The notes below the pieces were generated by a model that had not been told where the DNA came from, ran no database searches, and saw only the letters and a list, made by a program, of their open reading frames with translations. 51,207 nucleotides of DNA from a virus, in the IMG/VR virus record IMGVR_UViG_3300020407_000005, positions 1 through 51,207 of that record. One strand, written 5' to 3'. Positions 13,676 through 45,105 of the stretch are shown in pieces. The first letter of the stretch is position 1. Each line of letters begins with the position of its first letter. Position numbers and translations under genes: made by a program.

Positions 13676-13686
13676 CCGTGCATTGC

Positions 13687-23063: not shown

Positions 23064-23085
23064 CCCCACCCACTCACCCCACCCA

Positions 23086-23108: not shown

Positions 23109-23125
23109 CGTTCCCAGCCCCGATT

Positions 23126-23144
23126 TGTCCGGGATTCACGACGC
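23126..23144 (+). repeat. 19-bp dispersed repeat, copy 1
   Basis: TGTCCGGGATTCACGACGC is found three times in the window, all on the plus strand (also 29570-29588 and 45023-45041). Here it lies just after a terminator and 57 bases before the first late gene. Copies 1 and 2 share three further bases on the 5' side (ATT before TGTCC). Confidence 0.85.
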
Positions 23145-23201
23145 TCAGCCGTCCGATGCTCCGCGCCGACCGCAACAGCGGCAAACGCAGGAGCCAGCCC
23201 C

Positions 23202-23771
23202 GTGACGACGAACACGCAACGACGCATCCAGACGCCCGGCGCCCCCACGCCGGCTGCGGCACCCACCCAGGCCGAGCAGGCCGCCGCCGCGGCTGCAGCT
23301 GCTGGCGATGACCTGGACCAGTACGACGGCGACGAGCTGCCGCCGGCCACCGGTGCGGTCGAGACCAAGGCCTATGCCGACGGCACCACGGCCACCGGCA
23401 CCGCGCCGCTGCCCGAGCAGTCGCCGACGGCCGACAAGCCCAAGACCCGGAGCCGCGCCGCCAGCGCCCCCGCCGCGCAGCCGGTGGCCAGCGCTGCCGA
23501 ATTCACGCCCGAGCAGCAGGCGCTGATCGCGCAGATGATCGACAGCGCCGTGCGTGCCAGCAAGGCCAGCCAGAACCCGCGCACCGCCGCGATGCTCGCG
23601 GCCGGCGCCGACCGCACGAAGGCCGTGCCGCTCGACGTGGCCGTGGCCACCGCCGAGAACAGCGTGGCCGCCGGCCAGCGCCCGCGGCCCATCCTGACGC
23701 CGGAAGGCTGGTACGTCCACCCGGATTACGCCCGGGTCGCCAACCCCGACGTGGCCCGCCTGGGCGGCTGA
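23202..23771 (+). CDS. First gene of the virion region, unknown structural-type protein
   Basis: A 189-residue protein, Ala/Pro-rich and apparently disordered up to about residue 100 (PGAPTPAAAPTQAEQAAAAA), then helical (EFTPEQQALIAQMIDSAVRA) and ending in RPILTPEGWYVHPDYARVAN. Proteins of this make-up precede the portal gene in several podoviruses. Function is unknown. The GTG start follows CAGGAGCCAGCCCC. Confidence 0.65.
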   Translation: MTTNTQRRIQTPGAPTPAAAPTQAEQAAAAAAAAGDDLDQYDGDELPPATGAVETKAYADGTTATGTAPLPEQSPTADKPKTRSRAASAPAAQPVASAAEFTPEQQALIAQMIDSAVRASKASQNPRTAAMLAAGADRTKAVPLDVAVATAENSVAAGQRPRPILTPEGWYVHPDYARVANPDVARLGG

Positions 23772-23788
23772 GCGCGAGGACGGCCGCC

Positions 23789-24073
23789 ATGTGCATCTCT
23801 GCAGCCGCAATCGGTCTTCTGACCGCTGGCGTCACCGCTGCCAGCTCCATCTACGCGGCCCGTCAAAACGCCAAGGCCGCCGACTCGCAAGCCGGCGCCG
23901 CCGCCAAGTCGGACACGATGGCCGCGCAGAGCAGCAACGCCCGGCTGGCCATGCGCCGCCGGGCGCTGGCCGCCAACAGCCTGGCCACCGGCGCCAGCGA
24001 CCCGACCACGGGCAGCGGCACCGGCGCCAGCGGCGTGATGGGTGGCATGGGTCAGCAGACGCTGGGCGGGTGA
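23789..24073 (+). CDS. Small virion-type protein (internal-protein-like)
   Basis: A 94-residue protein beginning MCISAAAIGLLTAGVTAASS, with a helical Ala-rich body (KAADSQAGAAAKSDTMAAQS) and a Gly-rich end. The hydrophobic start and helical body resemble the T7 gp14-like protein at 34415-34951, which also starts with a short Met-Cys motif. It could be a small internal virion or portal-associated protein. That assignment is tentative. Confidence 0.55.
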   Translation: MCISAAAIGLLTAGVTAASSIYAARQNAKAADSQAGAAAKSDTMAAQSSNARLAMRRRALAANSLATGASDPTTGSGTGASGVMGGMGQQTLGG

Positions 24074-24077
24074 GCGT

Positions 24078-25691
24078 GTGGCAGTCGACACCGCCAAGCT
24101 CAAGGCCCGGCTGAACGCCAAGAAGGGCGAGCGCGCACCGCACGAGCAGATCTGGCGCGACTGCGCCGACTACAGCCATCCGCATCTGGGCGCGGGCTTT
24201 AGCGGCCAGATCCTCGGCGCCACCGAACTGCAGACCAAGAAGGCCCGGCTGCTCAACGGCGCGGGCACCGATGGCGTGACCACCTCGGCCGACGGCTTCA
24301 TGGGCGGCATGACGCCGGCCAATGCGCTGTGGTTCGGCCTGGACGCGGGCCGCGAGACGGACGAAGAGAAGTCCTGGCTCAGCGACTCGGCCATGACGAT
24401 CTGGGAAAACATCCACGCGTCCAACTTCGATGCCGAAGGCTACGACGCCGTGCTGACGTTCATCGTCTGCGGGTGGTTCGCGCTCTACATCGACGAGGAC
24501 GACAACGGCGGCTACTACTTCGAGAACTGGCCGCTGAGCCAGTGCTACATCGGCAGCTCGCGCCCGGGCAAGCCGGTGGACACGATCTACCGCGAGTGGG
24601 AGGCCACGGTCTCCGAGCTGGTCGAGCAGTACGGCATGGCCGGCGTCAGCGAGACCGTGCGCCGCCTGGCCGAGGCCGGCAAGGTGGATGCCACGGTGCC
24701 CGTGCTGTGGGCCATCGAGCCGCGGCGCGACTGGCTGCCCGGTGCCGCGGTCTCCACGCGGCTGCCGTTCGCCAGCGTGAAGATGGAGCTCAACACCGGG
24801 CACATGCTCAGCGAGAGCGGCTTCCACGAGTTCCCCTGCATCGTGCCGCGCTGGCGCCGCATCCCCGGCACGCCCTACGCGCTGGGCCCGATGAGCGATG
24901 CGCTGCCCGACTGCAAGAGCGCCAATGAGGTGGCCCGCTGGGAGTTCGCGGCGGCCGAGACCGCCATCGCGCCACCCATGATCGCCGAAGACGACGGCGT
25001 GCTGAACCCGCGCACGATCAAGCTGGGCCCGCGCAAGATCATCGTGGCCAACAGCGTCAACAGCATCAAGCCGCTGGTCACCGGCGCCAACGTGCAGTTC
25101 GGCCAGATGAAGGTGACCGAGCTGGAAGCCAAGGTGCGCCGCGCGCTGATGGCCGACCTGTTCGACAAGGTGCTGAACGACCCGCGGATGACGGCCACGC
25201 AGGTGCAGGCCATCCTGGGCATGCTGCGCCAGCGCATGGGCCCGCGCTTCGGCCGCCTGCAAGCCGAGTGGCTGCAGCCGCTGGTCGAGCGCTGCTATGG
25301 CCTGGCGCTGCGTGCCGGCGCACTGGGCCGGCCGCCCGAGACGCTGCTGCAGCGCAACTACACGATCCGCTACCTGTCGCCGCTGGCGCGCGCCCAGAAG
25401 CTGGACGAGGTGGCGTCGATCGAGACGCACGAAGCCTCACTGCTGCAGGAGGCGCAGGCCGTGCCGCAGGTGATGGACACCTACGACTGGGAAAGCGGCG
25501 CCCGCAAGAAGGCCGAGCTGCGCGGCGTGCCCGCCGACCTCGTGCCGTCGCGCCGCGCCGTCGAGCAGATGCGCGAGCAGCGCGCGCAAGCACAGGCCGC
25601 CGCACAGCAGGCGGCACAGCAACAACAGGTTGGCCAGGCCGCGCAGATGGCGTCGGCTGAGGCCATGGCTTCGCAACTGGCGCAGGCCTGA
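24078..25691 (+). CDS. Portal protein, head-tail connector (T7 gp8/BPP-1 type)
   Basis: A 537-residue portal forming the ring through which DNA enters and leaves the head. Marks of the podovirus Head_Tail_con family are APHEQIWRDCADYSHPHLGA at the N-terminus, LLNGAGTDGVTTSADGFMGG with the MTPANALWFGL segment, VLTFIVCGWFALYIDEDDNG, and MLRQRMGPRFGRLQAEWLQP. The C-terminal 45 residues are a Gln/Ala-rich tail. The GTG at 24078 is chosen because it follows the upstream stop by four bases; the open frame runs back into that gene. Length is typical. Confidence 0.93.
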   Translation: MAVDTAKLKARLNAKKGERAPHEQIWRDCADYSHPHLGAGFSGQILGATELQTKKARLLNGAGTDGVTTSADGFMGGMTPANALWFGLDAGRETDEEKSWLSDSAMTIWENIHASNFDAEGYDAVLTFIVCGWFALYIDEDDNGGYYFENWPLSQCYIGSSRPGKPVDTIYREWEATVSELVEQYGMAGVSETVRRLAEAGKVDATVPVLWAIEPRRDWLPGAAVSTRLPFASVKMELNTGHMLSESGFHEFPCIVPRWRRIPGTPYALGPMSDALPDCKSANEVARWEFAAAETAIAPPMIAEDDGVLNPRTIKLGPRKIIVANSVNSIKPLVTGANVQFGQMKVTELEAKVRRALMADLFDKVLNDPRMTATQVQAILGMLRQRMGPRFGRLQAEWLQPLVERCYGLALRAGALGRPPETLLQRNYTIRYLSPLARAQKLDEVASIETHEASLLQEAQAVPQVMDTYDWESGARKKAELRGVPADLVPSRRAVEQMREQRAQAQAAAQQAAQQQQVGQAAQMASAEAMASQLAQA

Positions 25692-25727
25692 CAGCACCAC
25701 TGAACCACACCACCACAGGGAAACACC

Positions 25728-28319
25728 ATGGGACGCCGCGGAGATTTCGGCTCTGGCATCACGCAGAAGCCTCGCGCAAACACCGACGTATGGGTCAATT
25801 CAATCGGAGATTTCGTCGATCAATCGGGGACCGTCGTCGGCGGGTTGCGCGATTTCCGAGACCTTCAACGAGCCGCCGCCGATCTGTTCAATGCCGACAC
25901 TGTGGTGCCGCTGACGGTGGCAAAGGGCTCTGCGATCACGCTGGAGTCCCCGCTGGTAGTAAACCACGCCACTCTGAATCTGGACCTCGCCGGCAGCACT
26001 GTCGAGGCCGGCAACATTGACGGGAACTACAAGGCGATTACCGCTGGCAACTCGTTCAACGATTACACGGGATACCGGAAGTACGACTTCTCGCGACCGT
26101 TCCTGCGCAACGGCACGATCAAGGGCCGTGGTCCCAGCGCCAACTTCGCCAGCCTGATCCGCAACGGTAAAGGCACCGCAGGCCTGTACTTCAACGGCAC
26201 CCGAGGCACGCCCAACAAGGTCATCCGGCCGACCACCGAAAACTTGGTCATCACGGGGTTCGACACCGGCATTGACGGCAAGACTGGCTTCTTCTTGGGC
26301 AACTTCAGCCGCACCGTGGTCTATGACTGTGCGCTGGGGTTCCGCCAACGCCGCGGCCTCGACGCTGGCGAGCGCATTGTGTTCAGCAATCGCTGCCTCA
26401 TGCAGCGCGTCCGCCTGGCTTTCCTGCTGGAAGACGATTCGTCTGAACTGCATTACGACGGCTCGCTCGACTACCTGATGCAGTGGATCATTGCGAATCC
26501 CGCATCCGGGTGGTGTCGAGCCACTTTCGACATCCACTACGAGACCTACTACACCAACAGCGGCAACGACAGCGGTTGGTATGTCGCCCAGGGCCGCGGC
26601 AATGACAACCGGCTGATCTACCCGTGGCTGGATAGCCCGGTTGACATGAACGGGGATGGGTCAGCGATCTGGATTCGCGCCGGTAGCTCGCTGGATCACA
26701 ACACCAACAACCTGGATGTGCCTATCGTCGGCACCACACCCAGCGCGACCAACGACCACTTCATCCATCTTCGCCATCGCAACAGCTGGGGTGTGATCGA
26801 CAAGGTGTCGGCGCAGAGCCTGAGCAACATCAGCAACACGCTGAAGCGGGGACCTGGCGTGCTGCGCAAGGAGTTTGTGGCACCGGCTTTCCCCAGCCGG
26901 CTGACCATCCCCTCCAAGGTGTCGAACAACCCGATGGATAACATGTTTGTCAGCCCGGCAATCAGCGATCTGTCGAGCGACCTGCTGTCTATTACGCACG
27001 ACGGCAAGGAAATTACCGATCGCTTCACTGGCTTGAACCTCACCCTGACCAGGGACAACACCGTGCGTCCCGGCGGGCAGGGCGATGGCACCGTTGGTGC
27101 CGTCACGTTGTCGGTCGATCCGGCGACTCAGATCACCACCTACATCACCGCGGCGGCCCCGATCTCCGGCAACAGCTGTGTGCTCACCGAGCCCTGGGCA
27201 TACCCCACCGGGACTTACACGCTGACCTTCTCCAACGGCGCCACGCGCACTGTGACGCTCAACAATGATTCGTCCGCCGTCAGCTGGGGTGGTGGTGGGG
27301 TGGTGGCCGACGCAGATATCGACGTGTCTGGCGGCATTCCGTCAGTGCAGCCGGCCGATGGATCGGTCCCTGCAGATGGCACCTACCGCGTGGTCTTCTA
27401 TGGCGACTCGGCCGGCACCTTCTGGCTGGAGACGGCAAACTATGAGTGTCTGGGCGTCGGTGTGGCCGGCACTCCGTTCGCAACCCGTGGCTTTGCATTT
27501 ACGGTGACCGCCGGCTCCATCCCGTTCGGCCCCTACGACACGGTGACCATCACGGTGGCCGGCGGTGTGGCAACTCGCAACGGAAGCCCAGCCGGCAAGC
27601 CAACTTCGAGCGGCGCTTCTCTCAAGGTCACGAAGAACGCGCAGACCTCTCTCACCTTTACGGGCGCTCTGTCCGCTGCCACCAGCGGCACGCTGACGGC
27701 GGCCTGGGCCGGGGCAACCGGGGTGTACGCAGTGACCTTCAGCGACAACTCGGTCAGGTCGGCCGTGCTGACCAACGGCAGCACCGCGGTCACCTGGACC
27801 GGTGGCGCCGTCACAGCCACTGCCAGCGCGACGATCCGCAACGATGCGAAGTGGAGCTGGATTCTGCCGGTGCAAAGGGGGCGAATGGTCTCGTTCGAGA
27901 TCCTGTCGCTGGTCCCTTCTGTCGGTGGTGCATCCGGTCCGGTGTCCCTGGCCTACCGTTTCGTCAAGCTCGGAACGCAGAAGGTCGGGGCGCTCACGGC
28001 GACGGCGACGGATGGCGCCGTTCGCGCTGGCCACAGCCAGCTGGTGCCGTCATTCGGGGCGCCCGACACCGGCTCCGCTGGGGGCTTCGACCTGGGCTTT
28101 TCGCGTTCCGGCGGCGACGTGCGCCTAGTCACCATCGACAGCAGCGCTGGCAATCTGGATCGTTGGACCGTCAACTATCTGACCATCGGCAATCCCTCGG
28201 TCAGCACCAGCGACATGGTGTGTCCCGACTGGGCTGATGCTGTGCAGGTGATCGGTGGCCATGACAACGCCGTGTCCGGGGCAGTGCACTTCGCATTGCC
28301 AAACGGTGCTCCGCTGTAG
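25728..28319 (+). CDS. Tailspike-like protein with beta-helix
   Basis: An 863-residue protein. After an N-terminal 60 residues that may attach it to the virion (NTDVWVNSIGDFVDQSG), a beta-helix region (about 55-400) shows spaced turns such as ATLNLDLAGSTVEAGNIDGN, TENLVITGFDTGIDGKTGFF and NLDVPIVGTTPSATNDHFIH, as in pectate-lyase-like spikes that cut or bind surface polysaccharide. The C-terminal half has two copies of a beta module (TYTLTFSNGATRTVTLNN and VYAVTFSDNSVRSAVLTNGS). No catalytic residues can be assigned. It lies between portal and scaffold genes, an unusual place for a receptor-binding protein; the other fibre is at 45151. Confidence 0.8.
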   Translation: MGRRGDFGSGITQKPRANTDVWVNSIGDFVDQSGTVVGGLRDFRDLQRAAADLFNADTVVPLTVAKGSAITLESPLVVNHATLNLDLAGSTVEAGNIDGNYKAITAGNSFNDYTGYRKYDFSRPFLRNGTIKGRGPSANFASLIRNGKGTAGLYFNGTRGTPNKVIRPTTENLVITGFDTGIDGKTGFFLGNFSRTVVYDCALGFRQRRGLDAGERIVFSNRCLMQRVRLAFLLEDDSSELHYDGSLDYLMQWIIANPASGWCRATFDIHYETYYTNSGNDSGWYVAQGRGNDNRLIYPWLDSPVDMNGDGSAIWIRAGSSLDHNTNNLDVPIVGTTPSATNDHFIHLRHRNSWGVIDKVSAQSLSNISNTLKRGPGVLRKEFVAPAFPSRLTIPSKVSNNPMDNMFVSPAISDLSSDLLSITHDGKEITDRFTGLNLTLTRDNTVRPGGQGDGTVGAVTLSVDPATQITTYITAAAPISGNSCVLTEPWAYPTGTYTLTFSNGATRTVTLNNDSSAVSWGGGGVVADADIDVSGGIPSVQPADGSVPADGTYRVVFYGDSAGTFWLETANYECLGVGVAGTPFATRGFAFTVTAGSIPFGPYDTVTITVAGGVATRNGSPAGKPTSSGASLKVTKNAQTSLTFTGALSAATSGTLTAAWAGATGVYAVTFSDNSVRSAVLTNGSTAVTWTGGAVTATASATIRNDAKWSWILPVQRGRMVSFEILSLVPSVGGASGPVSLAYRFVKLGTQKVGALTATATDGAVRAGHSQLVPSFGAPDTGSAGGFDLGFSRSGGDVRLVTIDSSAGNLDRWTVNYLTIGNPSVSTSDMVCPDWADAVQVIGGHDNAVSGAVHFALPNGAPL

Positions 28320-28346
28320 ATCCCGGCCGCTGCAATTCAACGCTTT

Positions 28347-28601
28347 ATGAGCGCAGACCTTGCCCCCCTCTACCGCGACATCTTCGATCTCGACCGCCGC
28401 GGTACCGCCATCCTGGAAGACCTGGTGCAGCGCTTCGGCGGCGCCCGTGTCTACACGGAAGGCGGCACCGACGCGGTGCTGAAGACCTACCAAGCCGCTG
28501 GCCGGCGCGAGGTCGTGGACTACATCCTGCGCCAGATCAACAACGCGAACGGCGCCCCAGATCCCCAACCCCCTGAAGAAGGAGACCCCAGCCATGAGTG
28601 A
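28347..28601 (+). CDS. Bbp19-like protein
   Basis: An 84-residue protein matching the small Bbp19-type proteins encoded before the scaffold gene in Bordetella phage BPP-1 relatives: LYRDIFDLDRRGTAILEDLV, then QRFGGARVYTEGGTDAVLKT and GRREVVDYILRQIN. The role is unknown, presumably in head assembly. It ends in an ATGA overlap with the scaffold gene. Confidence 0.75.
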   Translation: MSADLAPLYRDIFDLDRRGTAILEDLVQRFGGARVYTEGGTDAVLKTYQAAGRREVVDYILRQINNANGAPDPQPPEEGDPSHE

Positions 28602-29502
28602 AGCCGCCACCGCTCCCGCCGCTGCGCCGGCACCTGCCCCCGCTCCCGATGCTGGCGCCGCTGCGCCGGCTGCAGCACCTGCTGCGCCTGCCGCTGGCGC
28701 GCCTGCAGCTGCACCAGCACCTGCCGCCCCGGAAAGCCTGATCCACGGCGACCCGGCAGCAGCACCGCCGGCCAGCCCCGACGGCAAGACCGACACGCCG
28801 CCGGCCGGCACGCCCGACCCGCTGGCCGACCTGCTGGCCAAGCTGCCCGAGAAGTTCCAGGTCAAGGCCGGCGACAAGCTGGACGCGGCGGCCAGCCTGG
28901 CCAAGGCGCTGGAGCACCGCGACCACCTGGAGAAGCGGCTGGGGGCCGGTGACCTGCCGCCCAAGAGCGAGGCCGAGTACGCGTTCCAGCCGCCCGAGGA
29001 GTTCAAGGACTTCACCTTCAAGGAAGACCGCCTCAACGCCTTCAAGAAGGAAGCCCTGGCGGCTGGCGTGACCGGCAAGCAGTACGAGTTCATGATGAAC
29101 TCCTACCTCAAGGCCTTGCCCGACCTGATGGAAGGCGCCGCGGCCATGAGTGCCGCCGAGGCCCGGGCCGAGCTGGGCAAGGTGTGGACCACGCCCGACC
29201 AGTTGCAGACCGGCCTGGCCGATGCGCAGCGCGCACTGCGCGGCTTGCCGGCCGACCTGCAGGAAGCCACGCGCGAGTTCGGCACCAACCCCGCCTTCCT
29301 GCGCGCCATGGCCCACATGGGCGCACAGATGCGCGAGGACCGGCCGCCGGCCAGCACCTCGGCGCCGACCGCCGCAGCCGCTGACGTGCAGACCCTCATG
29401 AAGCACCCGGCGTACACGGACCCCAAGCACCCCGAGCACGCGACCGTCAGCGCCAAGGTGCGCCAGTTCTACGCCCAGGCCCACGGCACGCAGCCGCTGT
29501 AG
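28594..29502 (+). CDS. Capsid scaffold protein
   Basis: A 302-residue acidic protein. The first 70 residues are an Ala/Pro-rich disordered stretch. Then come PDPLADLLAKLPEKFQVKAG and a helical core (EFKDFTFKEDRLNAFKKEAL, AAMSAAEARAELGKVWTTPD), ending with HPEHATVSAKVRQFYAQAHG. This pattern fits scaffold proteins that guide capsid assembly and are lost before DNA packaging. Its position directly before the capsid gene supports the call. It is followed by a terminator. Confidence 0.8.
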   Translation: MSEAATAPAAAPAPAPAPDAGAAAPAAAPAAPAAGAPAAAPAPAAPESLIHGDPAAAPPASPDGKTDTPPAGTPDPLADLLAKLPEKFQVKAGDKLDAAASLAKALEHRDHLEKRLGAGDLPPKSEAEYAFQPPEEFKDFTFKEDRLNAFKKEALAAGVTGKQYEFMMNSYLKALPDLMEGAAAMSAAEARAELGKVWTTPDQLQTGLADAQRALRGLPADLQEATREFGTNPAFLRAMAHMGAQMREDRPPASTSAPTAAAADVQTLMKHPAYTDPKHPEHATVSAKVRQFYAQAHGTQPL

Positions 29503-29523
29503 CCCAGGCCGCACCCCAGCACC

Positions 29524-29548
29524 AAGCCGCCCACCGAGGCGGCTTTTT
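29524..29548 (+). terminator. Rho-independent terminator before capsid gene
   Basis: AAGCCGCC-CACCGA-GGCGGCTT with TTTTT is a textbook hairpin and T tract. It lies 22 bases after the scaffold stop and would limit transcription into the capsid gene unless there is a new start downstream. Confidence 0.85.
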
Positions 29549-29569
29549 CACGTCCGCTCAACGCGCATT

Positions 29570-29588
29570 TGTCCGGGATTCACGACGC
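29570..29588 (+). repeat. 19-bp dispersed repeat, copy 2
   Basis: The same TGTCCGGGATTCACGACGC as at 23126 and 45023. It follows a terminator by 21 bases and precedes the capsid gene by 177 bases. The stretch from here to the capsid start holds no convincing gene: a frame that begins in the repeat continues into capsid sequence out of frame and looks spurious. Confidence 0.85.
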
Positions 29589-29765
29589 CCCCCGGCAAGA
29601 CCATGCCGGCCATCGACAGGCCCGCCATGGCAAGCGGATCACCTGCAACCCGCCCGCGGCAGCGCTTCACAAGGCAGAGCGCACAGCCCGTAGAGCAGGC
29701 CCGAAGCGCAGTGCGACGGATCACCTGAAAGCCGAACGCCGGAACCACTTTCAGGAGCACTCAAC

Positions 29766-30638
29766 GTGTCCGATTCGATCCCGCAAAGCTTTGTCCAGCA
29801 GTTCGACACTTCGCTGCGACTGCTGGCCGCCCAGATGGACAGCCGGCTCAAGCCGTGTGTCACCGACCGCGGCATGATCACCGGTGAATCCTTCACCATC
29901 GCCAACATCGACCCGAGCGGCGACCTGCCGGCGGACAACGTGCGCCACGGCGACACGGAGTTCTCGGACATCGCGCACACCACCCGCGTGGTGCCCATGA
30001 AGGACTTCTTCGATGCGCTGCCGCTGGACCGCAGCGACATCCCGAAGATGCTGGTCAACCCGGTGACGGGCGGCCACTACATGCAGACCCTGGTGGGCAA
30101 GCGCAACCGCAAGGTCGACAACCTGATCTATCGCGCCTGCCGCGATGCGCAGCTGCTCAAGGACGGCACCAGCCAGGCGCTGCCCAGCGGCCAGAAGATC
30201 GCTGCCGGCGGCACGGGCTTCACCAAGGCCAAGGCCATCCAGGCCCGCAAGCTGTTCCGCGCGAACGAGAAGGACCAGCACGGCATGCCCGGCGAGAAGC
30301 TGTTCATCGCCTACACCGCCGACATGGTCGAGGACATCATGTCCGACACCACGCTGACCAGCGCCGACTATCTGGCCAACAAGTTCCTGCAGCAGGGCGA
30401 CGTCAGCGGCGACTGGCTGGGCTTCACCTGGATCCCGTTCGAGAGCATCGACGTGTCCGGCGGCACCTACTACACGGTGGCCTGGGCCAAGTCGGCGATC
30501 CACTACGGCGAAGGCTCCTTCGAGGGCCGTGTCGACCGCCGGCCCGACAAGAAGAACCTGTGGCAAACCGCCATGAACTGCTCGATGGCGGCTGGCCGCC
30601 AGGACGAGAAGGGCGTGGTCGAGATCGCCTACGTCTGA
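29766..30638 (+). CDS. Major capsid protein
   Basis: A 290-residue protein in the capsid position of BPP-1-type podoviruses. Typical features are an N-terminal helix (SFVQQFDTSLRLLAAQMDSR), the E-loop-like segment GESFTIANIDPSGDLPADNV, a spine helix (FTKAKAIQARKLFRANEKDQ), and a C-terminal A-domain region ending in WQTAMNCSMAAGRQDEKGVV. The phrase GEKLFIAYTADMVEDIM is common in this capsid family. It should form the icosahedral shell together with the next protein. The GTG start is preceded by AGGAGCACTCAAC. Confidence 0.9.
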   Translation: MSDSIPQSFVQQFDTSLRLLAAQMDSRLKPCVTDRGMITGESFTIANIDPSGDLPADNVRHGDTEFSDIAHTTRVVPMKDFFDALPLDRSDIPKMLVNPVTGGHYMQTLVGKRNRKVDNLIYRACRDAQLLKDGTSQALPSGQKIAAGGTGFTKAKAIQARKLFRANEKDQHGMPGEKLFIAYTADMVEDIMSDTTLTSADYLANKFLQQGDVSGDWLGFTWIPFESIDVSGGTYYTVAWAKSAIHYGEGSFEGRVDRRPDKKNLWQTAMNCSMAAGRQDEKGVVEIAYV

Positions 30639-30659
30639 CCCTGAAGGAGCACAAGCACC

Positions 30660-31118: not shown

Positions 31119-31165
31119 TCGCAGGAGCACGGCCGGCGCTGGATGGGGATGCTGGCCGAGGCATT

Positions 31166-31200
31166 GAGAGGGGGCCCACGCGGTCCCCTCTCTTTTTTTT
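31166..31200 (+). terminator. Strong Rho-independent terminator after the capsid genes
   Basis: GAGAGGGG and CCCCTCTC form a perfect eight-pair stem around an eleven-base loop, followed by eight T. It separates highly expressed capsid genes from the tail genes, whose first ATG lies only 15 bases later, so partial read-through is expected. Confidence 0.92.
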
Positions 31201-31214
31201 GAGAGGCCCGCCGC

Positions 31215-31784: not shown

Positions 31785-31785
31785 C

Positions 31786-34412: not shown

Positions 34413-34414
34413 CC

Positions 34415-34951: not shown

Positions 34952-34954
34952 GGC

Positions 34955-36997: not shown

Positions 36998-38148
36998 TGG
37001 ACTTCGACAACACGCAGGCGATCAATGAGCTGATCGCCAACCCGCCGCCGCTGAAGCCTGTGGCCACTACCCAGAAGTGGAACGCCTGGACCGCGCCACT
37101 ACGGGCTGTGGCTGCCGGCGTGGCAGAAATGGCGGGCACCCTCTCTTCGGTGCAGCCGCAGATGGACGCCAACCGGCCCATGCCGGAGATCCTCCTGGAA
37201 GAGCAGCGGCGGTGGCAGCAGCGCTACGGTGACCGAACCGAGTCGCAGGTCATGCGGGACGTCGCGCGCGATCTGAGGCCCGATCCAAACACAGCTGGCG
37301 TCGCAGAGAACATCGTCTTTGGCCTGGGCCGAGGCCTGACCAAGGGTGCGCTGTACCTGGGGGCGGGTGGTCCGATCCTGGGCGCCGCCGCCTTTGGCGT
37401 TGACGAAGGCGCGACCACCATGGCTGACCTGCAACAGCAGGGCGTCGATGCCAACACCGCGCTGAAGGCAGGTGTTGCTGCTGGCGTTGGTGGCACCGTA
37501 GGTTTGGCGCTGCCCATGGCCGGCTCTACCGTGGGGCGCACAGTCGGGCTATGGGCCGTGGGCGGTCCCGGCGCCTTCGTTGCCCAGCAGGCAGCGACGC
37601 AGAAGATCCTGCGTGATGCCGATTACGGGCGCATCGCGGAAAGCTACGATCCGCTGGACCCGGTAGGGCTGGCTGTCGCGGCACTGGTGCCAGGCGTCTT
37701 CGCCGGCCTGCATATCAGGGGACTGCGAAGACCTGGAGAGGCCGCGCCGACGCCAGAGGCCGCCCCACCCCGCCCAGCCGTGGACCTGGATGCCGTCGAC
37801 GCCGCGATGACGCACAACCTGACCGCTCAGGCAGACGCACTGGCAAAACTGCCGCCGGAAACCTTGCCGGACGATGCCCCGCTCCCAGGTCCTGTCGCAA
37901 AGCTGAAGCCTGAGCCGGAACAGGGGCTGACGCCAGAAGCGGCCCGGCCTGCCGCTGAGCAAGCCATCGACCTGCAGACCGTTTCGCCAGACTTGCCTGT
38001 GCGGGTGTCCGATGACGGGCGTCTGGTGACGGTGGACGAAGAGATGAACGCGGTGCGCCAAGACGCCCGCAACGGGTCCGACTTTGAGCTGGGCCACGAC
38101 GACGCGCCGCTGCTGCAGGTCGCGGCGGAGTGCTTTCTTACGCTGTGA
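36997..38148 (+). CDS. Internal virion protein-like component
   Basis: A 383-residue protein. The first 100 residues are helical; a Gly/Ala-rich hydrophobic section follows (TKGALYLGAGGPILGAAAFG, GVAAGVGGTVGLALPMAGST), which could cross a membrane; the last part is Pro/Ala-rich and ends in PLLQVAAECFLTL. Membrane-seeking regions are expected in ejection proteins. In relatives this part may be joined to the next large protein. Here a minus-strand gene separates them. The function is inferred from position. Confidence 0.7.
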   Translation: MDFDNTQAINELIANPPPLKPVATTQKWNAWTAPLRAVAAGVAEMAGTLSSVQPQMDANRPMPEILLEEQRRWQQRYGDRTESQVMRDVARDLRPDPNTAGVAENIVFGLGRGLTKGALYLGAGGPILGAAAFGVDEGATTMADLQQQGVDANTALKAGVAAGVGGTVGLALPMAGSTVGRTVGLWAVGGPGAFVAQQAATQKILRDADYGRIAESYDPLDPVGLAVAALVPGVFAGLHIRGLRRPGEAAPTPEAAPPRPAVDLDAVDAAMTHNLTAQADALAKLPPETLPDDAPLPGPVAKLKPEPEQGLTPEAARPAAEQAIDLQTVSPDLPVRVSDDGRLVTVDEEMNAVRQDARNGSDFELGHDDAPLLQVAAECFLTL

Positions 38149-38335
38149 GCAAGAAAGGTAAGGCCAAGATCAGCATCAGGACACAGAGCGCCAGCAGCAC
38201 ACCGACGAAGAGGCCGTATTCCTTGATGGCACTGATAGCGCCCTTCATCGAATTGCCGCCTGCAAGATAGCCAAGGAATGCAATCCACAGCACCCCGACA
38301 AGGGCCGCTCCACCGAATATGAGGAATTGACGCAT
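38138..38335 (-). CDS. Minus-strand two-helix membrane protein inside the late operon
   Basis: A 65-residue protein with two transmembrane helices: about 4-24 (FLIFGGAALVGVLWIAFLGY) and 41-62 (GLFVGVLLALCVLMLILALP), joined by a polar loop with NSMKGAISAIKEY. It is transcribed against the late genes. Its start and that of the next plus-strand gene lie in one palindrome CATGGCCATG, so the two genes diverge from the same bases. A second ATG (38341) is possible. This may be a lysogeny-expressed cargo gene (superinfection exclusion type) or a membrane regulator. Function is not known. Confidence 0.6.
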   Translation of the reverse strand: MRQFLIFGGAALVGVLWIAFLGYLAGGNSMKGAISAIKEYGLFVGVLLALCVLMLILALPFLLTA

Positions 38336-40877
38336 GGCCATGGATCCGAAGTGTAGGGCCGCCGTCCGCGCGGCCGCTGCAGGGCGCCAAATCAGCGACG
38401 CGAAGATCGATCTGATCGAGCAGCAACTGAGAGAGACAGGGCAGATGCTGGCCCGCCAAGACCCAGAGCGCTGGATCGGCCTGACGACGGCCCAGCGAAC
38501 GCGCGAGATTGCAGCGGCAGCCATGGACCAAGTCAAAGCCGAGGCGCTGCGGAAGGAGTGGCGCGCCTCTCTGCAGGTCACGCGGTCCGCGCAGGCCGGC
38601 GCGCGCATAGAGGCCGCAATGGCGCTGAACCAGCTGACGCGCTCGCAAGGCCTGATCCGCGACATCGAGAACACCGGCCACAACATCGAAGCGGTGCGCA
38701 ACGAAGCCATGTCAGGCCTGGGCGACATGATCGACGCCGCCGAGTCGGCCGACGGCACCGGGGCGCTGCGCCGCCTGGGCATGCGCTTGTTCGACCTGGA
38801 CAACCCTCGCATGACCGCCGACGTGGTGCGCGAGATCTTCCGCAACGCCGACGGATCAACTGGCAATGCGGCGGCGCGCGCGGGGGCCAAGGCCTGGTTG
38901 GCCACGATCGAGCGCATGCGCGTCCGCTTCAACGAGAGCGGCGGCAACATCGGGCGCTTGGCCTACGGCTACCTGTCGCAGGCTCACGATCAGGTGAAGG
39001 TGCTGACCGCCGGTGCCGAGGCCTGGGCTGACGCGGTGCTGCCGCTGCTGGACCGCCGGCAGTACGTGAACGCCGACGGCTCGCGCATGACCGACGCGCA
39101 GGTGGGTGAACTGCTGCGCAACGCCTGGAAGACCCTGGCCACCGGTGGAGACAACAAGGTGGATCCCGGGCAGTTTCGCGGCCAGGGTGCGCGTGCCAAC
39201 CGTGGCAGCGATCACCGCGTGCTGCACTTCGCGGACGGCGATGCGTGGATGCGGTACATGGAGCAGTTCGGCCAGGGCTCGCTCTACGACGCCATGGTGG
39301 GGCACGTCGGACGCATGGCGCGGGACATTGGCTTGGTCGAGGCTTATGGGCCAAACCCCGAGCAGACGTTCCGCGTGTTGAACGACCTGGCCCGCCGCGA
39401 CGATGCCAAGGGCAAAATCGGTGACTTCCTTTCCAACCGCAGCGCCGGCAACACCCCGCAGGCCTACTGGGATCTGGTGTCCGGCGTGACGGGCACGCCA
39501 GTCAATCCGGCGCTGGCGCGAGCCGGCCAGAGCACTCGCAACGTTTTGACGGCCGCAAAGCTGGGCGGCGCGGTGATCAGCTCGTTGACGGATGTGGCCA
39601 CCATCGCCCAGGCGCTGCACTTCAACCGCCTCGGCTATTTCGAGATGCTGCAGAACGTGAAGGGCCAGGCGGATCCGCAAGTGCGCGATTTCCTCCAGGC
39701 ACACGGGATCATCGCCGAATCGCTGGCCAGCTCTTTGGGGCGATGGAGTGGAGAGGCTGTGACCAGCGGCATTTCTGCGCGCTTTGCAGGAGCTGTGATG
39801 AAGGTGCAACTGCTGGGCGTGTGGACCGACGGGCTCCGCGGCGCCTTCTCGCAGACGCTGATGGCAGGCCTCGCGCGCACCGCGAAGAAGAACTGGGCGC
39901 AGCTGGACGAGTGGGATCGCTACCTGCTGCAGCGAAAAGGCTTGACCGAGGACGACTGGAACATCATCAGCAAGGCCCAGCCGACTGAGTTCGAGGGGCG
40001 CACCTACCTGACCGGTGAGGCAGTGCGGGCAACCGGCCTGCCCGGCGCCGACCAGGCGGCCACCAAGCTGCTCGGCTTCATCGTGGACGAAGGCCAGTTC
40101 GCTGTGACGAACCCGGACATGGCAACGCGAGCCATCACCACGGCCGGCGGCCGGCCGGCTGGCACGGTGGGCGGGGAGCTTGCGCGCAGCGTGGCTCAGT
40201 TCAAGAGCTTCCCGCTGGCGCAAATCACCCGCCACTGGCGCCGCATGTTGGAGACCCCGCAGGGCCTGGAGGGCGCGCCAGCGTTGTACGGTGCGAACAC
40301 GCGCATGGGTGCACTGAGCAACCGCATGATGCTGCTGGCCGTGGCGAACGTCACAGGCATGATGCTGGGCGCCGTGGTGTTGCAGGTGAAGTCGCTGCTG
40401 CAAGGCAAAGACCCGGCCGACATGACCGAGGGCAAGTTCTGGCTTCGCTCGCTGGCGCAAGGCGGTGGCATGGGGTACCCCGGCGACCTCCTGCTGAAGG
40501 ATCCGACCGAGTCGCGGTCCAACACTGCGCAGCAGGCGGTCGGCTCGGTGCTGGGGCCGACGGCCGGGACTGCTGCCGGCATCTTGGGCGACCTGGTTGT
40601 CACCAATGCCTGGCAAGCGGCCAAGGGCAAGGACACGGATCTTGGCGCTGAAGCGCTGCGGATGGGTATTGGTCTGGTGCCAGGCAACAACCTGTGGTGG
40701 AGCCGACCGCTGTTCGATCGCTGGTTTTTGTTCGCTGCGCAAGAAGCGTTGAATCCAGGCTACTTGGGGCGCATGCAGCAGCGCGCGATGAAAGACTACG
40801 GCCAAGGCTTCTGGTGGTCTCCAGACGAGGCCTTGCCGGACCGCGCCCCGAACTTCGAGGGCATGGTCGGGCAGTGA
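38334..40877 (+). CDS. Large internal virion protein, T7 gp16-like position
   Basis: An 847-residue protein, helical for most of its length (GRQISDAKIDLIEQQLRETG, VKAEALRKEWRASLQVTRSA). Further blocks include NVLTAAKLGGAVISSLTDVA and MMLLAVANVTGMMLGAVVLQ, a hydrophobic stretch near 660-690. Position and size fit the large ejection protein. I see no transglycosylase signature in it. The C-terminal LGRMQQRAMKDYGQGFWWSP is common in large podovirus core proteins. The stop abuts the opposite-strand Arc-like gene with no gap. Confidence 0.75.
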   Translation: MAMDPKCRAAVRAAAAGRQISDAKIDLIEQQLRETGQMLARQDPERWIGLTTAQRTREIAAAAMDQVKAEALRKEWRASLQVTRSAQAGARIEAAMALNQLTRSQGLIRDIENTGHNIEAVRNEAMSGLGDMIDAAESADGTGALRRLGMRLFDLDNPRMTADVVREIFRNADGSTGNAAARAGAKAWLATIERMRVRFNESGGNIGRLAYGYLSQAHDQVKVLTAGAEAWADAVLPLLDRRQYVNADGSRMTDAQVGELLRNAWKTLATGGDNKVDPGQFRGQGARANRGSDHRVLHFADGDAWMRYMEQFGQGSLYDAMVGHVGRMARDIGLVEAYGPNPEQTFRVLNDLARRDDAKGKIGDFLSNRSAGNTPQAYWDLVSGVTGTPVNPALARAGQSTRNVLTAAKLGGAVISSLTDVATIAQALHFNRLGYFEMLQNVKGQADPQVRDFLQAHGIIAESLASSLGRWSGEAVTSGISARFAGAVMKVQLLGVWTDGLRGAFSQTLMAGLARTAKKNWAQLDEWDRYLLQRKGLTEDDWNIISKAQPTEFEGRTYLTGEAVRATGLPGADQAATKLLGFIVDEGQFAVTNPDMATRAITTAGGRPAGTVGGELARSVAQFKSFPLAQITRHWRRMLETPQGLEGAPALYGANTRMGALSNRMMLLAVANVTGMMLGAVVLQVKSLLQGKDPADMTEGKFWLRSLAQGGGMGYPGDLLLKDPTESRSNTAQQAVGSVLGPTAGTAAGILGDLVVTNAWQAAKGKDTDLGAEALRMGIGLVPGNNLWWSRPLFDRWFLFAAQEALNPGYLGRMQQRAMKDYGQGFWWSPDEALPDRAPNFEGMVGQ

Positions 40878-41435
40878 CTAAGGAAGCTTTGGAGGCTTTG
40901 GAGGCTTTGGAGGCTTTGGCTGCGCTGCGCGGTCAGCTCTCAAAGTATCGATCATGGCTTGGCGCCCGAGCTTCGCGTAGCGCTGCACCCCACGCTCCAT
41001 CATCTCCCGAAGATCCTCTGGGGTGTTGGGCGGCAAACGTCCAGTGCTGGCCTCGAGGGACTTGCTCAAGGCCTGCCGCCGCACTGCCTCATTGAGCTCT
41101 CGCCACTGCGGGATGTCTTTGGCAAATCGCGTCAAGGCTTCGGAGCTTGGCGGCAGGGCCTCAAGGATGCGTTCAAAGTGCATCGCGATCAAACCAGCCA
41201 AATACAACCCGCCCTCTGTGCGCGACTTCTCAACTTCCAGGGCGCGCTCAAGATCCTCAACGCGGGAAGCGTCGGCGCGCCCATCCAGTGACGCTTGAAG
41301 CCGGGCGACGATCTCCGAGTTCATCGATCGGCCCGCCGCCTTGGCGGCATCTGCGATGCGTTCGCGCATCCCATCCGGAAGCCGGAGCATGAACTTGTCC
41401 GCAGCGTCAGAGGGAAATGTTTTGGAGGTAGCCAC
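40878..41435 (-). CDS. Arc-family ribbon-helix-helix repressor with long C-terminal extension
   Basis: A 185-residue protein. Residues about 10-50 match the Arc ribbon-helix-helix: [20 protein letters not shown], then [20 protein letters not shown]. Arc itself is about 53 residues, so the following 130 residues are an extra helical part ending in the repeated Pro-Lys tail. It is transcribed opposite to the late genes and diverges from a second Arc-like gene, with shared operator sequences between. The GTG start at 41435 lies about seven bases after a likely -10 box, so its message may be leaderless. It probably represses the antirepressor operon. Confidence 0.85.
40884..40919. repeat. Tandem 9-bp repeat encoding a Pro-Lys tail
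   Basis: CTTTGGAGG is repeated about four times. On the minus strand it encodes [13 protein letters not shown], the C-terminal tail of the Arc-like repressor. Copy number could change by slippage, altering tail length without a frameshift. Confidence 0.8.
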
Positions 41436-41446
41436 AGCCTATTGTA

Positions 41447-41545
41447 GTGGCGACTCGCTATAGCTAAAAACGATAGCGATTCGCCACCATCAGACGTGGA
41501 CTCAATAGAGTCAAGTCGCTATCATGAAAGCGTGTCGAGTCGCTA
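41447..41545. promoter_or_regulatory. Operator region between the two Arc-like genes
   Basis: A large inverted repeat pairs GTGGCGACTCGCTA (41447-41460) with TAGCGATTCGCCAC (41474-41487), 13 of 14 bases matching. To the right, GTCGCTA occurs twice as a direct repeat (41515-41521 and 41539-41545), the first touching the -10 box of the rightward promoter. These are good candidates for binding sites of the two ribbon-helix-helix proteins, which bind such half-sites in P22. Confidence 0.7.
41497..41525 (+). promoter_or_regulatory. Predicted promoter of the antirepressor operon
   Basis: TGGACT (41497-41502) and TATCAT (41520-41525, five of six consensus bases) are separated by 17 bases. A GTCGCTA half-site overlaps the -10 box. 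Transcription would start near 41532 and read the small Arc-like gene, then the antirepressor. Confidence 0.6.
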
Positions 41546-41564
41546 CCACTTCGAAGGAGAGAAC

Positions 41565-41738
41565 ATGGCAACCAGCGCAACCCAAGACGACTACGCAAAG
41601 ACCGCGCTTCGACTTCCCCGCGACCTGCACAGGGCCGTGCATGAGGCGGCCAAGCAGCAGGACCGCAGCTTCAACGGCCAGATCGTGGCGCTGCTGCGCG
41701 CCGCGCTCGCGCCGGTGAAGCAAGGGGCTTCGCAATGA
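41565..41738 (+). CDS. Small Arc-like ribbon-helix-helix protein
   Basis: A 57-residue protein of Arc size. The domain is DDYAKTALRLPRDLHRAVHE (strand and first helix), then AAKQQDRSFNGQIVALLRAA (second helix). The ATG at 41565 is preceded by AAGGAGAGAAC, a good ribosome-binding site, and is preferred over an ATG further upstream in the frame. As the first gene of the antirepressor operon it probably turns down its own promoter, as Arc does in P22. Confidence 0.85.
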   Translation: MATSATQDDYAKTALRLPRDLHRAVHEAAKQQDRSFNGQIVALLRAALAPVKQGASQ

Positions 41739-41992
41739 AGCCCACCAAGATCAACCCCAGCGCCTTCATCGAGTTCGATGCTGAGGGCGACGACGCGGCC
41801 AACGGCAACGTTGTGGGCATGGATGCATGGACGAGCCTGGCTGAAGGCAAGACGCCAGACGAAGCCGCGAAGGCCATGACCGAGGCGCTCATGGAGGCGG
41901 CGATGTTCGAAGAACGTCCCACGGCCGCCGCCGTGATCTACGGCGCCGTGCATCTGCTGCTCGAGGTCGCCCAACGCCCGAAGGTGGCTTGA
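41735..41992 (+). CDS. Unknown acidic protein in antirepressor operon
   Basis: An 85-residue acidic protein (INPSAFIEFDAEGDDAANGN, then GKTPDEAAKAMTEALMEAAM). It lies between the Arc-like gene and the antirepressor and overlaps both by four bases. It could modify the antirepressor or repressor; no domain is recognised. Confidence 0.6.
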   Translation: MKPTKINPSAFIEFDAEGDDAANGNVVGMDAWTSLAEGKTPDEAAKAMTEALMEAAMFEERPTAAAVIYGAVHLLLEVAQRPKVA

Positions 41993-42519
41993 TGAACCCC
42001 CTCACCATCGCGGGCACCGAGATCCGGATGGACGGTGACGGACGGTTTTGCCTGAATGACCTGCACCGAGCCGCCGGCCGTGCACGGAAGGACCAGCCGA
42101 ACCACTTCCTTGCGCGCAAGGAAACCCAAGACATGGTGGCCGAGTTGCTGTCCGAGCAAGGCTCGGAGGGGCCTCCCGGAATTCCGGGAGGCCCCATCAA
42201 TGTCCTCAATGACGGGCACAACAACGGCACCTACGTGGTCAAGGAGCTGGTCTACGCCTACGCGATGTGGATCAGCCCCAAGTTCAGCCTCCAGGTCATC
42301 CGGGCTTACGACTCCATGGTCATGGACGAGTTGGGCCGACTGAACGGACTCCAGTGCAAGGCGATGCGCGCTGAGCTCGAATTCCTGAAGGGCATGCAGG
42401 AAGCCAGCCGGTGCGGCTTGGCGCTGCGCCGGTGGCAGCAGTCCAAGCCAGCGCTCGAGCAGACGATGGAAGAACTGCTCAACGAGCTGCAGCCCGGCCT
42501 GTTTCGGGCAGACCACTGA
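41989..42519 (+). CDS. KilA-N domain antirepressor
   Basis: A 176-residue protein whose first 105 residues are a KilA-N domain: IRMDGDGRFCLNDLHRAAGR, PNHFLARKETQDMVAELL, then GTYVVKELVYAYAMWISPKF followed by SLQVIRAYDSMVM. Phage antirepressors of this sort inactivate the prophage repressor or other regulators. The C-terminal part (ELEFLKGMQEASRCGLALRR) is helical. The domain is interrupted by a GPPGIPGGP stretch encoded by a perfect 28-bp palindrome, which may be an insertion in the loop. The Arc-like genes beside it should keep it silent in the lysogen. Confidence 0.88.
   Translation: MMNPLTIAGTEIRMDGDGRFCLNDLHRAAGRARKDQPNHFLARKETQDMVAELLSEQGSEGPPGIPGGPINVLNDGHNNGTYVVKELVYAYAMWISPKFSLQVIRAYDSMVMDELGRLNGLQCKAMRAELEFLKGMQEASRCGLALRRWQQSKPALEQTMEELLNELQPGLFRADH
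42151..42195. repeat. Two adjacent perfect hairpins inside the antirepressor gene
   Basis: TCCGAGC-AAG-GCTCGGA (42151-42167) is followed without a gap by a perfect 28-bp palindrome (42168-42195), whose left half is GGGGCCTCCCGGAA and right half its exact complement. In mRNA both would fold into very stable stems in the coding sequence. They encode SEQGSEGPPGIPGGP. Confidence 0.9.
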
Positions 42520-42599
42520 TGCCCCAAAAGGAGAAGCCCCGGCGCTGGCAGGCGTCGAGGCTTCGAGGTGAAACCACTCTGACGAGAGAAGGAATCGAC

Positions 42600-42905
42600 A
42601 TGGAAAGTACCACAAACGTGATCGCGCTGCCAACGGCGGCCCCAGAACGGGTCGTCAACCAGGTTCCCAGAGGCCGGCGCGCGCGCGGCGGCAAGGTGAC
42701 GCTGGCCTGCGACCTGGTGCGCCGCCGCTACCAGCGCACACAGGCCGCGCGCAAGGCTGAAACGACGAGCGAGGCGGCCGATGCCTTCAAGCGCGGCTAT
42801 GAGATGCAGAAGCTGGAATCCGCGCTCGCTGCGGCGCTGCTGGGTGATCCCGTTGTTCGCCGCGTTGTCATGGACATTGTCGGCGGCAACCTGCGATTCA
42901 ACTGA
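42600..42905 (+). CDS. Unknown basic protein after antirepressor
   Basis: A 101-residue protein with an Arg-rich N-terminal part (VPRGRRARGGKVTLACDLVR, RRRYQRTQAARKAETTSEAA) and a helical C-terminus. The ATG at 42600 has the ribosome-binding site AGAAGGAATCGAC. An in-frame ATG at 42519, overlapping the antirepressor stop, would add 27 residues and may be used instead. Possibly DNA- or RNA-binding; function unknown. Confidence 0.6.
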   Translation: MESTTNVIALPTAAPERVVNQVPRGRRARGGKVTLACDLVRRRYQRTQAARKAETTSEAADAFKRGYEMQKLESALAAALLGDPVVRRVVMDIVGGNLRFN

Positions 42906-43007
42906 GGTATGCACATAGCCACCACAGAGACCGAGCCCGAAACCTCCACTCCTTCTTTCTTGCTCCCTGCGGCCCGACAATCCAGCCGGTGACAAGGAGC
43001 GTGTGAC

Positions 43008-43409
43008 ATGCGTGCTGACCAGTTCGAGAAGCTGCAGCGGCTGGAAGAAAAGCTGATCGACGTGTTCATCGAAGAGGCCGACCCGGCCGGCTGGCCTGGC
43101 CAGGGCCTGAAGCTGGGCGCCATGGATTCGCAGACGCGAGGTGATCTGTACTGGACCCGCAAGACCGCCGCGTCGGTGCTGGTGCTGGCGCAGAAGGTCG
43201 GTGGCCTGGTGTCCACCGCGCAGCAGCGCGCCGCCGGCACATTGCCGCCGGCAGGCGAGGGCGGCGAACAGCCGGCCGGCGAGGACGAAGGCGCCCAGCT
43301 CGACACGCTGGTCGACAGCGCCGAGCGCGAGGCCCTGCGCCTGATGCGCGAGCTGCAGGGCGCCGGTGGCAAAGCAGCCTTCGACCGGAAGGTGCATGGC
43401 CGAGGCTGA
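43008..43409 (+). CDS. Probable small terminase subunit
   Basis: A 133-residue protein directly before the large terminase gene, in the place of the small subunit. It is helical (ADQFEKLQRLEEKLIDVFIE, then GDLYWTRKTAASVLVLAQKV) with an acidic disordered linker (PPAGEGGEQPAGEDEGAQ) and a final helix. Such proteins recognise phage DNA and start packaging. The match is by position and size; sequence similarity to known small subunits is weak. The ribosome-binding site is AAGGAGCGTGTGAC. Confidence 0.65.
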   Translation: MRADQFEKLQRLEEKLIDVFIEEADPAGWPGQGLKLGAMDSQTRGDLYWTRKTAASVLVLAQKVGGLVSTAQQRAAGTLPPAGEGGEQPAGEDEGAQLDTLVDSAEREALRLMRELQGAGGKAAFDRKVHGRG

Positions 43410-45105
43410 AGCCCCGGCACCTGACGCGCCGGCCGCACCACGGCCGCCGGTGAGCTTTCTCACGTTCTTCGTGCTGTGGGCGCGGCACATGGGCTGGACC
43501 GTGCCTCTGCTGCACGTGCGCATCTGCCTGTGGCTGGAGACCTGCACGGCGCCCGAGCGGGTGCTCATGGTCTTCCGCGGCGCGGCCAAGTCTACGATCT
43601 ATGCGGTCTACAAGGCCTGGAAGCTGTACCGCAACCCGTCGCGCCGCTCGCTGGTCTGGTCGGCTGACGGCCCCACCGCCGAGATGCTGACGGCCGACGT
43701 GATCAACGTGCTGCGCAACCACCCGCTGACCGGGCACCTGCTGGGAGGCCGCAAGCCGGGCCGCAAGCGCTTCTGGGTGAACGGCGCCAGCGACATGCGC
43801 AATGCAAGCATGCGGTCGGTGGGCGTGGACTCCAACGCCACCGGCGCGCGGGCCGACGATGTGGACTTCGATGACATCGAGGTGCCCGGCAACATCGAGA
43901 CGCCCGAGGCGCGCCAGAAGCTGCGGTACCGGATCAGCGACAGCACGCACATCCTGGTGCCGGGCGGCCAGGCGACGTACATCGGCACGCCGCACACCAT
44001 GGACTCGATCTACCCCGAGCAGATCGCCGGCGGGGCCGAGGTGCTGACGATCCCGCTGTTCGAGCACATGGTGCGGCACAGCGAGACGGCCGAGCGCACG
44101 CGGTACCGCTTCGACTTCACGCCTGGTGCTGACGGCCTGTACGTGATGACCGGCATCTACCAGGGCGCCAAGCTGCTGGTGCAGGGCCGTGATTACCTCG
44201 TCGAGGGCAACGAGGTGGTGTTCCCGGCGCCGCCTGGCGCAGTGGTCGACATCTGCGCGGGCTGCGCCTGGCCGGAGCGCTTCACGCGCGACGAGATCCA
44301 GCTGCGCCGCCGCAAGACGCGCACGCTGAACGCCTGGGACAGCCAATACTTCCTCAAGGCCAAGCCGCTGACCGACATCCGGCTGGACCCGGACCGCCTG
44401 CCGCTGTACGACTGCGAGCCCGAGTTCCGCACCGCCAACAAGCGGCTGCAGCTGTGGCTGGGCACGGCGCGCATCGTCGGCGCCGCGCTGCGGTGGGACC
44501 CGTCCAGCGGCAAGACCAAGAGCGACGTGAGCGCGCTGGCCCTGGTGCTGCAAGACGACCGCGGCTGCCGGTACTGGCACCGTGCCATCGCGCTGGAGGG
44601 CAACGTCGCCGACTACGACGAGCGCACCGGCAAAGAGATCGTCGGCGGCCAGGTGTGGGCCATCTGCGGGGTGGTGGCCAAGTTCGGCGTGCGCCGCATC
44701 ACCGTGGAGACAAACGGCGCCGGCACCTTCGCGCCGGCCGTGCTCAAGGCGGCGCTCAAGCAGCTCGGGCTGGTGTGCGGGGTCAAGGAGATCCACGCCA
44801 CCGAGAACAAGAACCGGCGCATCTTGGAGGCCATGGAAGGCCCGATCCAGTCCGCCATGCTGTGGGCGCACGTCAGCGTGGCCGACGGCCCGGCGTTCCC
44901 GCAGATGCGCAGCTGGAACCCCGCGGTGCGCGAGCAGCCCGACGATCACCTGGACGCCTGCGCGGGCGCGATCGACGACCAGCCCGAGCGCCTGATCCCG
45001 CAGGCTGGCGCGGCCGGGCAAATGTCCGGGATTCACGACGCGCCCCAAAACGAGGATTGGCGCCCGGCAACCGGGGTGTTCGAGGCCGAGCTGGAAATGG
45101 ACTGA
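43396..45105 (+). CDS. Terminase large subunit (T7 gp19/BPP-1 type)
   Basis: A 569-residue packaging motor. Marks are a Walker A MVFRGAAKSTIYAV (58-71), an adenine-contact region SLVWSADGPTAEM, a Walker B-like RADDVDFDDIEV (152-163), and a coupling segment YRISDSTHILVPGGQATYIG. The nuclease domain has RWDPSSGKTKSDVSALALVL with a metal-binding Asp, then ITVETNGAGTF, and QPDDHLDACAGAI. The ATG at 43396 overlaps the previous gene; one at 43366 is also in frame. Near the C-terminus the DNA carries the third copy of the 19-bp repeat (MSGIHDAP in the protein). Confidence 0.93.
   Translation: MAEAEAPAPDAPAAPRPPVSFLTFFVLWARHMGWTVPLLHVRICLWLETCTAPERVLMVFRGAAKSTIYAVYKAWKLYRNPSRRSLVWSADGPTAEMLTADVINVLRNHPLTGHLLGGRKPGRKRFWVNGASDMRNASMRSVGVDSNATGARADDVDFDDIEVPGNIETPEARQKLRYRISDSTHILVPGGQATYIGTPHTMDSIYPEQIAGGAEVLTIPLFEHMVRHSETAERTRYRFDFTPGADGLYVMTGIYQGAKLLVQGRDYLVEGNEVVFPAPPGAVVDICAGCAWPERFTRDEIQLRRRKTRTLNAWDSQYFLKAKPLTDIRLDPDRLPLYDCEPEFRTANKRLQLWLGTARIVGAALRWDPSSGKTKSDVSALALVLQDDRGCRYWHRAIALEGNVADYDERTGKEIVGGQVWAICGVVAKFGVRRITVETNGAGTFAPAVLKAALKQLGLVCGVKEIHATENKNRRILEAMEGPIQSAMLWAHVSVADGPAFPQMRSWNPAVREQPDDHLDACAGAIDDQPERLIPQAGAAGQMSGIHDAPQNEDWRPATGVFEAELEMD
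45023..45041 (+). repeat. 19-bp dispersed repeat, copy 3 (inside terminase gene)
   Basis: TGTCCGGGATTCACGACGC again, on the plus strand, inside the last 28 codons of the terminase gene and 109 bases before the tail-fibre start. It is read as MSGIHDAP in frame. The three copies match over 19 bases, whereas flanking bases do not. Confidence 0.85.

Follow-up and report, generated by a model that had tools for sequence, protein, structure and literature searches.

At the lambda CII promoters PRE, PI and PaQ, the CII site straddles the -35 region of a weak promoter and the -10 element is read by sigma70. The T4 middle promoters have a comparable layout, i.e. the MotA box at -30 replaces the -35 element ahead of a plain -10 element used with host sigma70, while the activators Ogr of P2/186 and C of Mu each serve several dispersed late operons through common dyad sites. 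Here, we analysed a 51,207-nucleotide stretch of viral DNA (IMG/VR record IMGVR_UViG_3300020407_000005, positions 1 to 51,207; hereafter the window), in which a 19-base word recurs ahead of virion genes. Judging from sequence comparisons, we consider it likely that this word is the core of a 22-bp box lying over the -35 region of three late promoters, with a small helix-turn-helix (HTH) protein as the probable factor.

Repeated boxes ahead of the late genes

The word, TGTCCGGGATTCACGACGC, is present exactly three times in the window, at positions 23126, 29570 and 45023 and always on the plus strand (0.02 copies expected from shuffled sequences), as claimed by the original prediction, whose distances from the copies to the next start (57, 177 and 109 bases) also proved exact. 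Allowing for zero to three mismatches across the whole window returned three matches, each exact and on the plus strand, and no further copy was found in the window within five mismatches. Degenerate copies of a 21-mer with up to eight mismatches showed no excess over a reversed-sequence control in the whole window, the next-best match having six mismatches. The arms of the box are GTC-N10-GAC, and copies 1 and 2 have 22 bp in common, ATTTGTCCGGGATTCACGACGC.

The first box (23123..23144, +) belongs to the predicted promoter P1 of the portal operon, which opens with a gene with a GTG start (23202..23771, +) followed by the portal gene (24042-25691, PF12236). The second (29567..29588, +), assigned to P2, precedes the gene for the major capsid protein (29766..30638, +, PF19821). 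The third (45020..45041, +), assigned to P3, lies in the 3' end of the terminase large subunit gene terL (43366..45105, +, PF22530, phrog_38), where it is read in frame as QMSGIHDA; the first gene past it encodes a tail fibre/spike with an S74 peptidase domain (45151..47337, +, PF13884).

Alignment-based searches gave 80 viral loci and 24 bacterial-genome loci, and the portal protein alone as query gave none. The relatives compared show about 45-50% portal identity to the window, and the hosts of this phage group include Enterobacteriaceae, Pseudomonas, Acinetobacter, Alcaligenes and Comamonas. The exact 19-mer is present in no other record of viral_contigs; a count in related phages, as had been suggested, finds no copy of the word itself in the relatives, which have their own repeated boxes at the equivalent late positions. 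The commonest of these (class 1), GTC[GA]GGANNCCGAC, is an inverted repeat, GTCRG-N4-CCGAC, and is repeated 3-6 times in each genome, with practically every copy facing the late direction. Ahead of the portal gene, the relatives have their box at a distance of about 500-950 bp, a range matched by the place of P1, and ahead of the capsid gene at 160-190 bp. Further boxes stand about 60 bp 5' of terS, inside the end of terL ahead of the tail fibre, i.e. at the place of P3, and before the lysis genes, with the terS and lysis sites being found often, not always. A promoter of the terS or lysis type was looked for as a fourth one in the window and not found. The nearest kin, i.e. G001 and a Comamonas testosteroni contig, carry the variant boxes GTCAGGAACGTAGAC; GTTCGGGAACTTGAC and GTTCGGGATTTGAGAC, which sit at the window's positions as far as the contigs extend. 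A second class of box, ACACCCAACAAACC, is found in Acinetobacter and Alcaligenes relatives; it is unrelated in sequence and not an inverted repeat.

The location of the third copy inside the terminase gene was as predicted, while the claim that it alters the C-terminal residues did not hold: relatives have a box of their own at the equivalent point of terL, and downstream of the P3 box the C-terminal motif WRP.TGV.EAEL is conserved in Piluca and TPWB-05. Therefore, copy 3 does not disrupt the terL C-terminus. The same comparison bears on the earlier proposal of a recombination joint between modules. Although they do stand at module borders, and a gene for an 863-aa protein that the relatives do not have at that place lies between copies 1 and 2, the positions are kept with different box sequences, including the one inside terL, and a scar would not hold a -10 element at a fixed distance (see below). 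We consider this explanation extremely improbable.

A fixed distance between box and -10 element

Strong evidence for a promoter comes from an alignment of 82 non-redundant related sites chosen by the box alone. Downstream of the box, an A at +28 is found in 80/82 sites and a T at +32 in 79/82, the next-best downstream column reaching 66%; these correspond to positions 2 and 6 of a predicted -10 hexamer, NANNNT, which follows the box centre by 17 bp. With this hexamer as reference, the box core spans -39 to -26 and contains GGANNC at -35 to -30, followed by a 17-bp spacer to the -10 element. NANNNT stands at the exact spacing in 197 of the 202 late-strand cores, as opposed to none of the ten on the other strand, and three of the five late-strand misfits are shorter by one base. 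The unrelated class-2 box shows the same geometry in the Acinetobacter and Alcaligenes phages (A in 30/32, T in 27/32).

Since the offset was set in advance by the relatives, the copies in the window provide a test of it, and all three fit. The offset +28 is the sole one between -60 and +79 at which the A...T pair is present in all three copies, and with the spacing fixed beforehand the chance of this is about 1.2e-5. The predicted -10 hexamers are GATGCT for P1 (23155..23160, +; predicted +1 at about 23167, the box thus covering about -44 to -23), GACCAT for P2 (29599..29604, +; +1 at about 29611) and GAGGAT for P3 (45052..45057, +; +1 at about 45064). A scan with consensus promoters over 22900-30000, covering P1 and P2, called none. 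There is no -35 hexamer, GGANNC occupying its place, and an extended -10 (TG) was found in 0/82 related sites. Considering that both elements are missing, the boxes most likely represent activator-dependent late promoters. The reading as a late promoter or activator site, offered as one of several by the original prediction, is thus strongly supported by the hexamer at fixed distance, both in the window and at about 200 related sites, and the boxes almost certainly have promoter status.

The inverted repeat of the relatives could also fold, at the RNA level, into a 5-bp stem capped by a GANN loop, which would suit a site for processing, stability or antitermination. The window box, however, folds worse than 95% of shuffles, and in the relatives the pairs 3-10 (21/82) and 0-13 (9/82) are broken without compensation, in a test that is limited by the search pattern. 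As the class-2 box lacks the inverted repeat, and as an RNA hairpin would leave the fixed -10 element unexplained, we regard this explanation, including the earlier idea of a processing site, as very improbable.

A candidate activator upstream of the first box

A gene for a small HTH protein of 143 aa (21233..21664, +; PHROG 16553/17493) lies upstream of the first box, and had been put forward as a possible binding partner. It is still the best candidate: a profile built from the HTH proteins of the window, G001 and the Comamonas contig picked up homologues across the relatives with few exceptions, nearly always immediately ahead of the first box. Of the 53 class-1 loci whose upstream sequence extends over 2.5 kb or more, 51 have a homologue near the first box, at a median of 217 bp upstream; the two exceptions are L042, with the homologue farther upstream, and L029/G009. 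In class-2 loci, a homologue is found upstream of the first box too. BcepC6B has a homologue, gp01, and no shared box was recognised there. The boxes, their -10 geometry, their conserved positions and the linkage to the HTH gene can all be read directly from the genomes compared.

The structural models of the protein are XRE-like (pLDDT 80 and 77), and their best PDB matches, nearly all of XRE type, have E 0.016 or worse, with weak fold matches to C proteins, HipB, P22 c2 and SinR. The family profile reaches lambda CII chains in the PDB at E of about 0.2, i.e. a weak similarity; the protein has no Pfam match at E 0.1, the CII profile included, and no NCBIfam assignment. One of the two PHROG families is labelled unknown and the other, 16553, 'transcriptional repressor'.

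Several observations speak against late promoters of this kind that are activated by the HTH protein. The spacing is off by one base at a few sites (L039, L060, L078, G001); the near-complete phage genome L029/G009 has class-1 boxes and no recognisable HTH homologue; the label of PHROG 16553 names a repressor; the fold matches are weak, the best having E 0.016; and in a partial Mantel test, box divergence tracks that of the portal (partial r 0.64) over that of the HTH protein (0.16, permutation p about 0.025). Because the box tracks portal divergence better, the coevolution test gives no specific pointer to the HTH protein.

Two of these observations, i.e. the G009 boxes and the box sequence following the phage clade better than the HTH sequence, would also fit promoters served by an unlinked or host factor, such as an alternative sigma factor or a host activator, as would the exact placement of GGANNC at -35 to -30, separated by 17 bp from the -10 element. 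On the other hand, the copies of the box are uniform in any one phage, while phages of related hosts have different ones, a pattern consistent with a phage-encoded factor. Linkage of the HTH gene is nearly general, and the -10 element retains the A/T signature of sigma70. A factor of this kind is therefore unlikely, and the HTH protein encoded at 21233-21664 is probably the factor of these promoters.

A further possibility is that the late promoters are real and that the boxes serve as operators, at which the HTH protein or the prophage repressor silences the late genes in the lysogen. The boxes are indeed dyads over -35, the label of PHROG 16553 points in this direction, and the annotated repressor sites of epsilon15 (ATTACC...GGTAAT; L131, 12-27, 2931-2947, 19895-19911 and 32479-32632) occur in its immunity region and again ahead of late units. 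However, the boxes of the window are absent from the immunity region, with none near the repressor gene (13181-13729), and nearly all boxes of the relatives lie in the late region. Moreover, the box centre is asymmetric and its orientation always one way, and a promoter with neither a -35 nor an extended -10 element would have little basal activity to repress. Silencing through the boxes thus appears quite unlikely, and a bound factor would very likely act as an activator.

Hairpins upstream and downstream of the predicted promoters

Two of the copies had been described as following terminators. Both hairpins are real: one before P1 (23085..23106, +; 8 bp, -16.2 kcal/mol, z -2.4) has a T-poor tail, and one before P2 (29524..29547, +; 8 bp, -14.5 kcal/mol, z -4.9) is followed by a proper T run, which the P1 hairpin does not have. 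When the P2 hairpin was compared with the relatives, a hairpin with a T run was found directly 5' of the box there as well. A scan for consensus terminators called neither hairpin. Considering that only the P2 hairpin has a proper T run and that the scan made no call, a terminator is likely at copy 2 and weaker at copy 1.

Downstream, folding over 63 sites peaks at about -5 to +2 relative to the predicted start, which suggests that late messages open with a stem-loop. At the terS and lysis promoters of L111-L129, the predicted transcripts before terS start with a terminator-like hairpin and a U run directly 5' of the ATG; this hairpin may stabilise the 5' end or act as an attenuator.

The capsid mRNA has a leader (29608..29765, +) with two tandem hairpins closed by CAGG/CCTG and an ATCA internal loop. 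Two independent alignments gave one plan, i.e. two hairpins, a 1x4 internal loop (AYAC; ATCA in the window) and a central covarying stem, with compensatory changes in 14/23 and 7/22 pairs, respectively (L007, L087, L011 and others). These comparisons mark the leader, which lies downstream of P2, as a conserved RNA with a defined structure; it had no family match in Rfam and could be a site of translational autoregulation.

A proposed late-gene switch

Concerning transcription start, binding, activation and timing, we infer the following sequence of events. The HTH protein would be made early, from the end of the delayed-early operon, and would bind the box, which covers the -35 region (about -44 to -23), and recruit host sigma70 RNA polymerase to the minimal -10 element NANNNT. 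In this way, it would turn on together three otherwise silent late units, i.e. portal and scaffold from P1, capsid, tail and terminase from P2, and tail fibre and lysis from P3. The likely terminator before P2 would keep transcription from upstream out of the late units; the hairpin before P1 is the weaker one.

It is tempting to extend this proposal to a widespread late-gene switch of temperate podoviruses, in which one HTH protein of PHROG 16553/17493 would serve all late operons through a box replacing the -35 element; two or more mutually unrelated classes of box would have arisen under a single homologous family of regulators, and each late mRNA would carry a 5' stem-loop. We lean towards this wider proposal as reasonably plausible. 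No relevant work came up in a literature search on the box sequence and on late activators in this phage group, and the late-gene turn-on of this large temperate group has apparently not been described in the literature searched; a Q-like antiterminator was not recognised, though no systematic search for one was made. Our analysis provides exact predicted promoter positions and start sites as well as one candidate regulator. If true, it would give a function to two PHROG families, and would describe a system in which activator and box diverge while the promoter geometry stays fixed.

Prophage setting

The window is a complete, tRNA-integrated prophage. A 47-bp direct repeat including the tRNA 3' end (attL/attR, 31-77 and 50136-50182) delimits an intact prophage of about 50.1 kb, with the integrase gene at 481-1797. 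The prophage is temperate and podovirus-like, its virion module (portal, capsid, terminase and S74-domain tail fibre) being related to those of YeP4-6, Piluca and Acinetobacter phages, and distantly to those of epsilon15 and HTVC010P. The 863-aa protein (25728-28319) is encoded between portal and scaffold; it has no Pfam and no PHROG match and is possibly an extra spike or moron gene product.

Comparison with known systems

The closest folds to the HTH models include the restriction-modification C proteins C.EcoT38IS, C.BclI and C.Esp1396I, which are XRE-type dimers able to activate transcription from a box close to -35. In contrast to the proposed late activator, these are cellular regulators of restriction-modification with GACT/AGTC boxes, and the likeness is one of predicted fold. 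Epsilon15 combines a related virion module with dyad sites before several late units; unlike the boxes described here, its sites are found in the immunity region as well and are annotated as repressor sites. Neither the HTH family nor the box was found in epsilon15, and in BPP-1 the HTH family had no more than a weak match, with the Cro-like gene.

P2/186 Ogr and Mu C resemble the proposed switch in the use of one phage activator for dispersed late operons, but their sites lie upstream of -35 (near -55 for Ogr) and the proteins are not XRE-like HTH proteins. The T4 middle promoters share the replacement of the -35 element, whereas MotA has another fold and works with AsiA, and both box sequence and gene class differ. 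Lambda CII is alike in being a small phage HTH activator with a site straddling the -35 region of a weak promoter whose -10 element is read by sigma70. The direct repeat TTGC-N6-TTGC read by CII was not found in the boxes, which are GTC-N10-GAC in the window and GTCRG-N4-CCGAC in the relatives. While CII acts in lysogeny through direct repeats, the class-1 box is an inverted repeat ahead of late virion genes.

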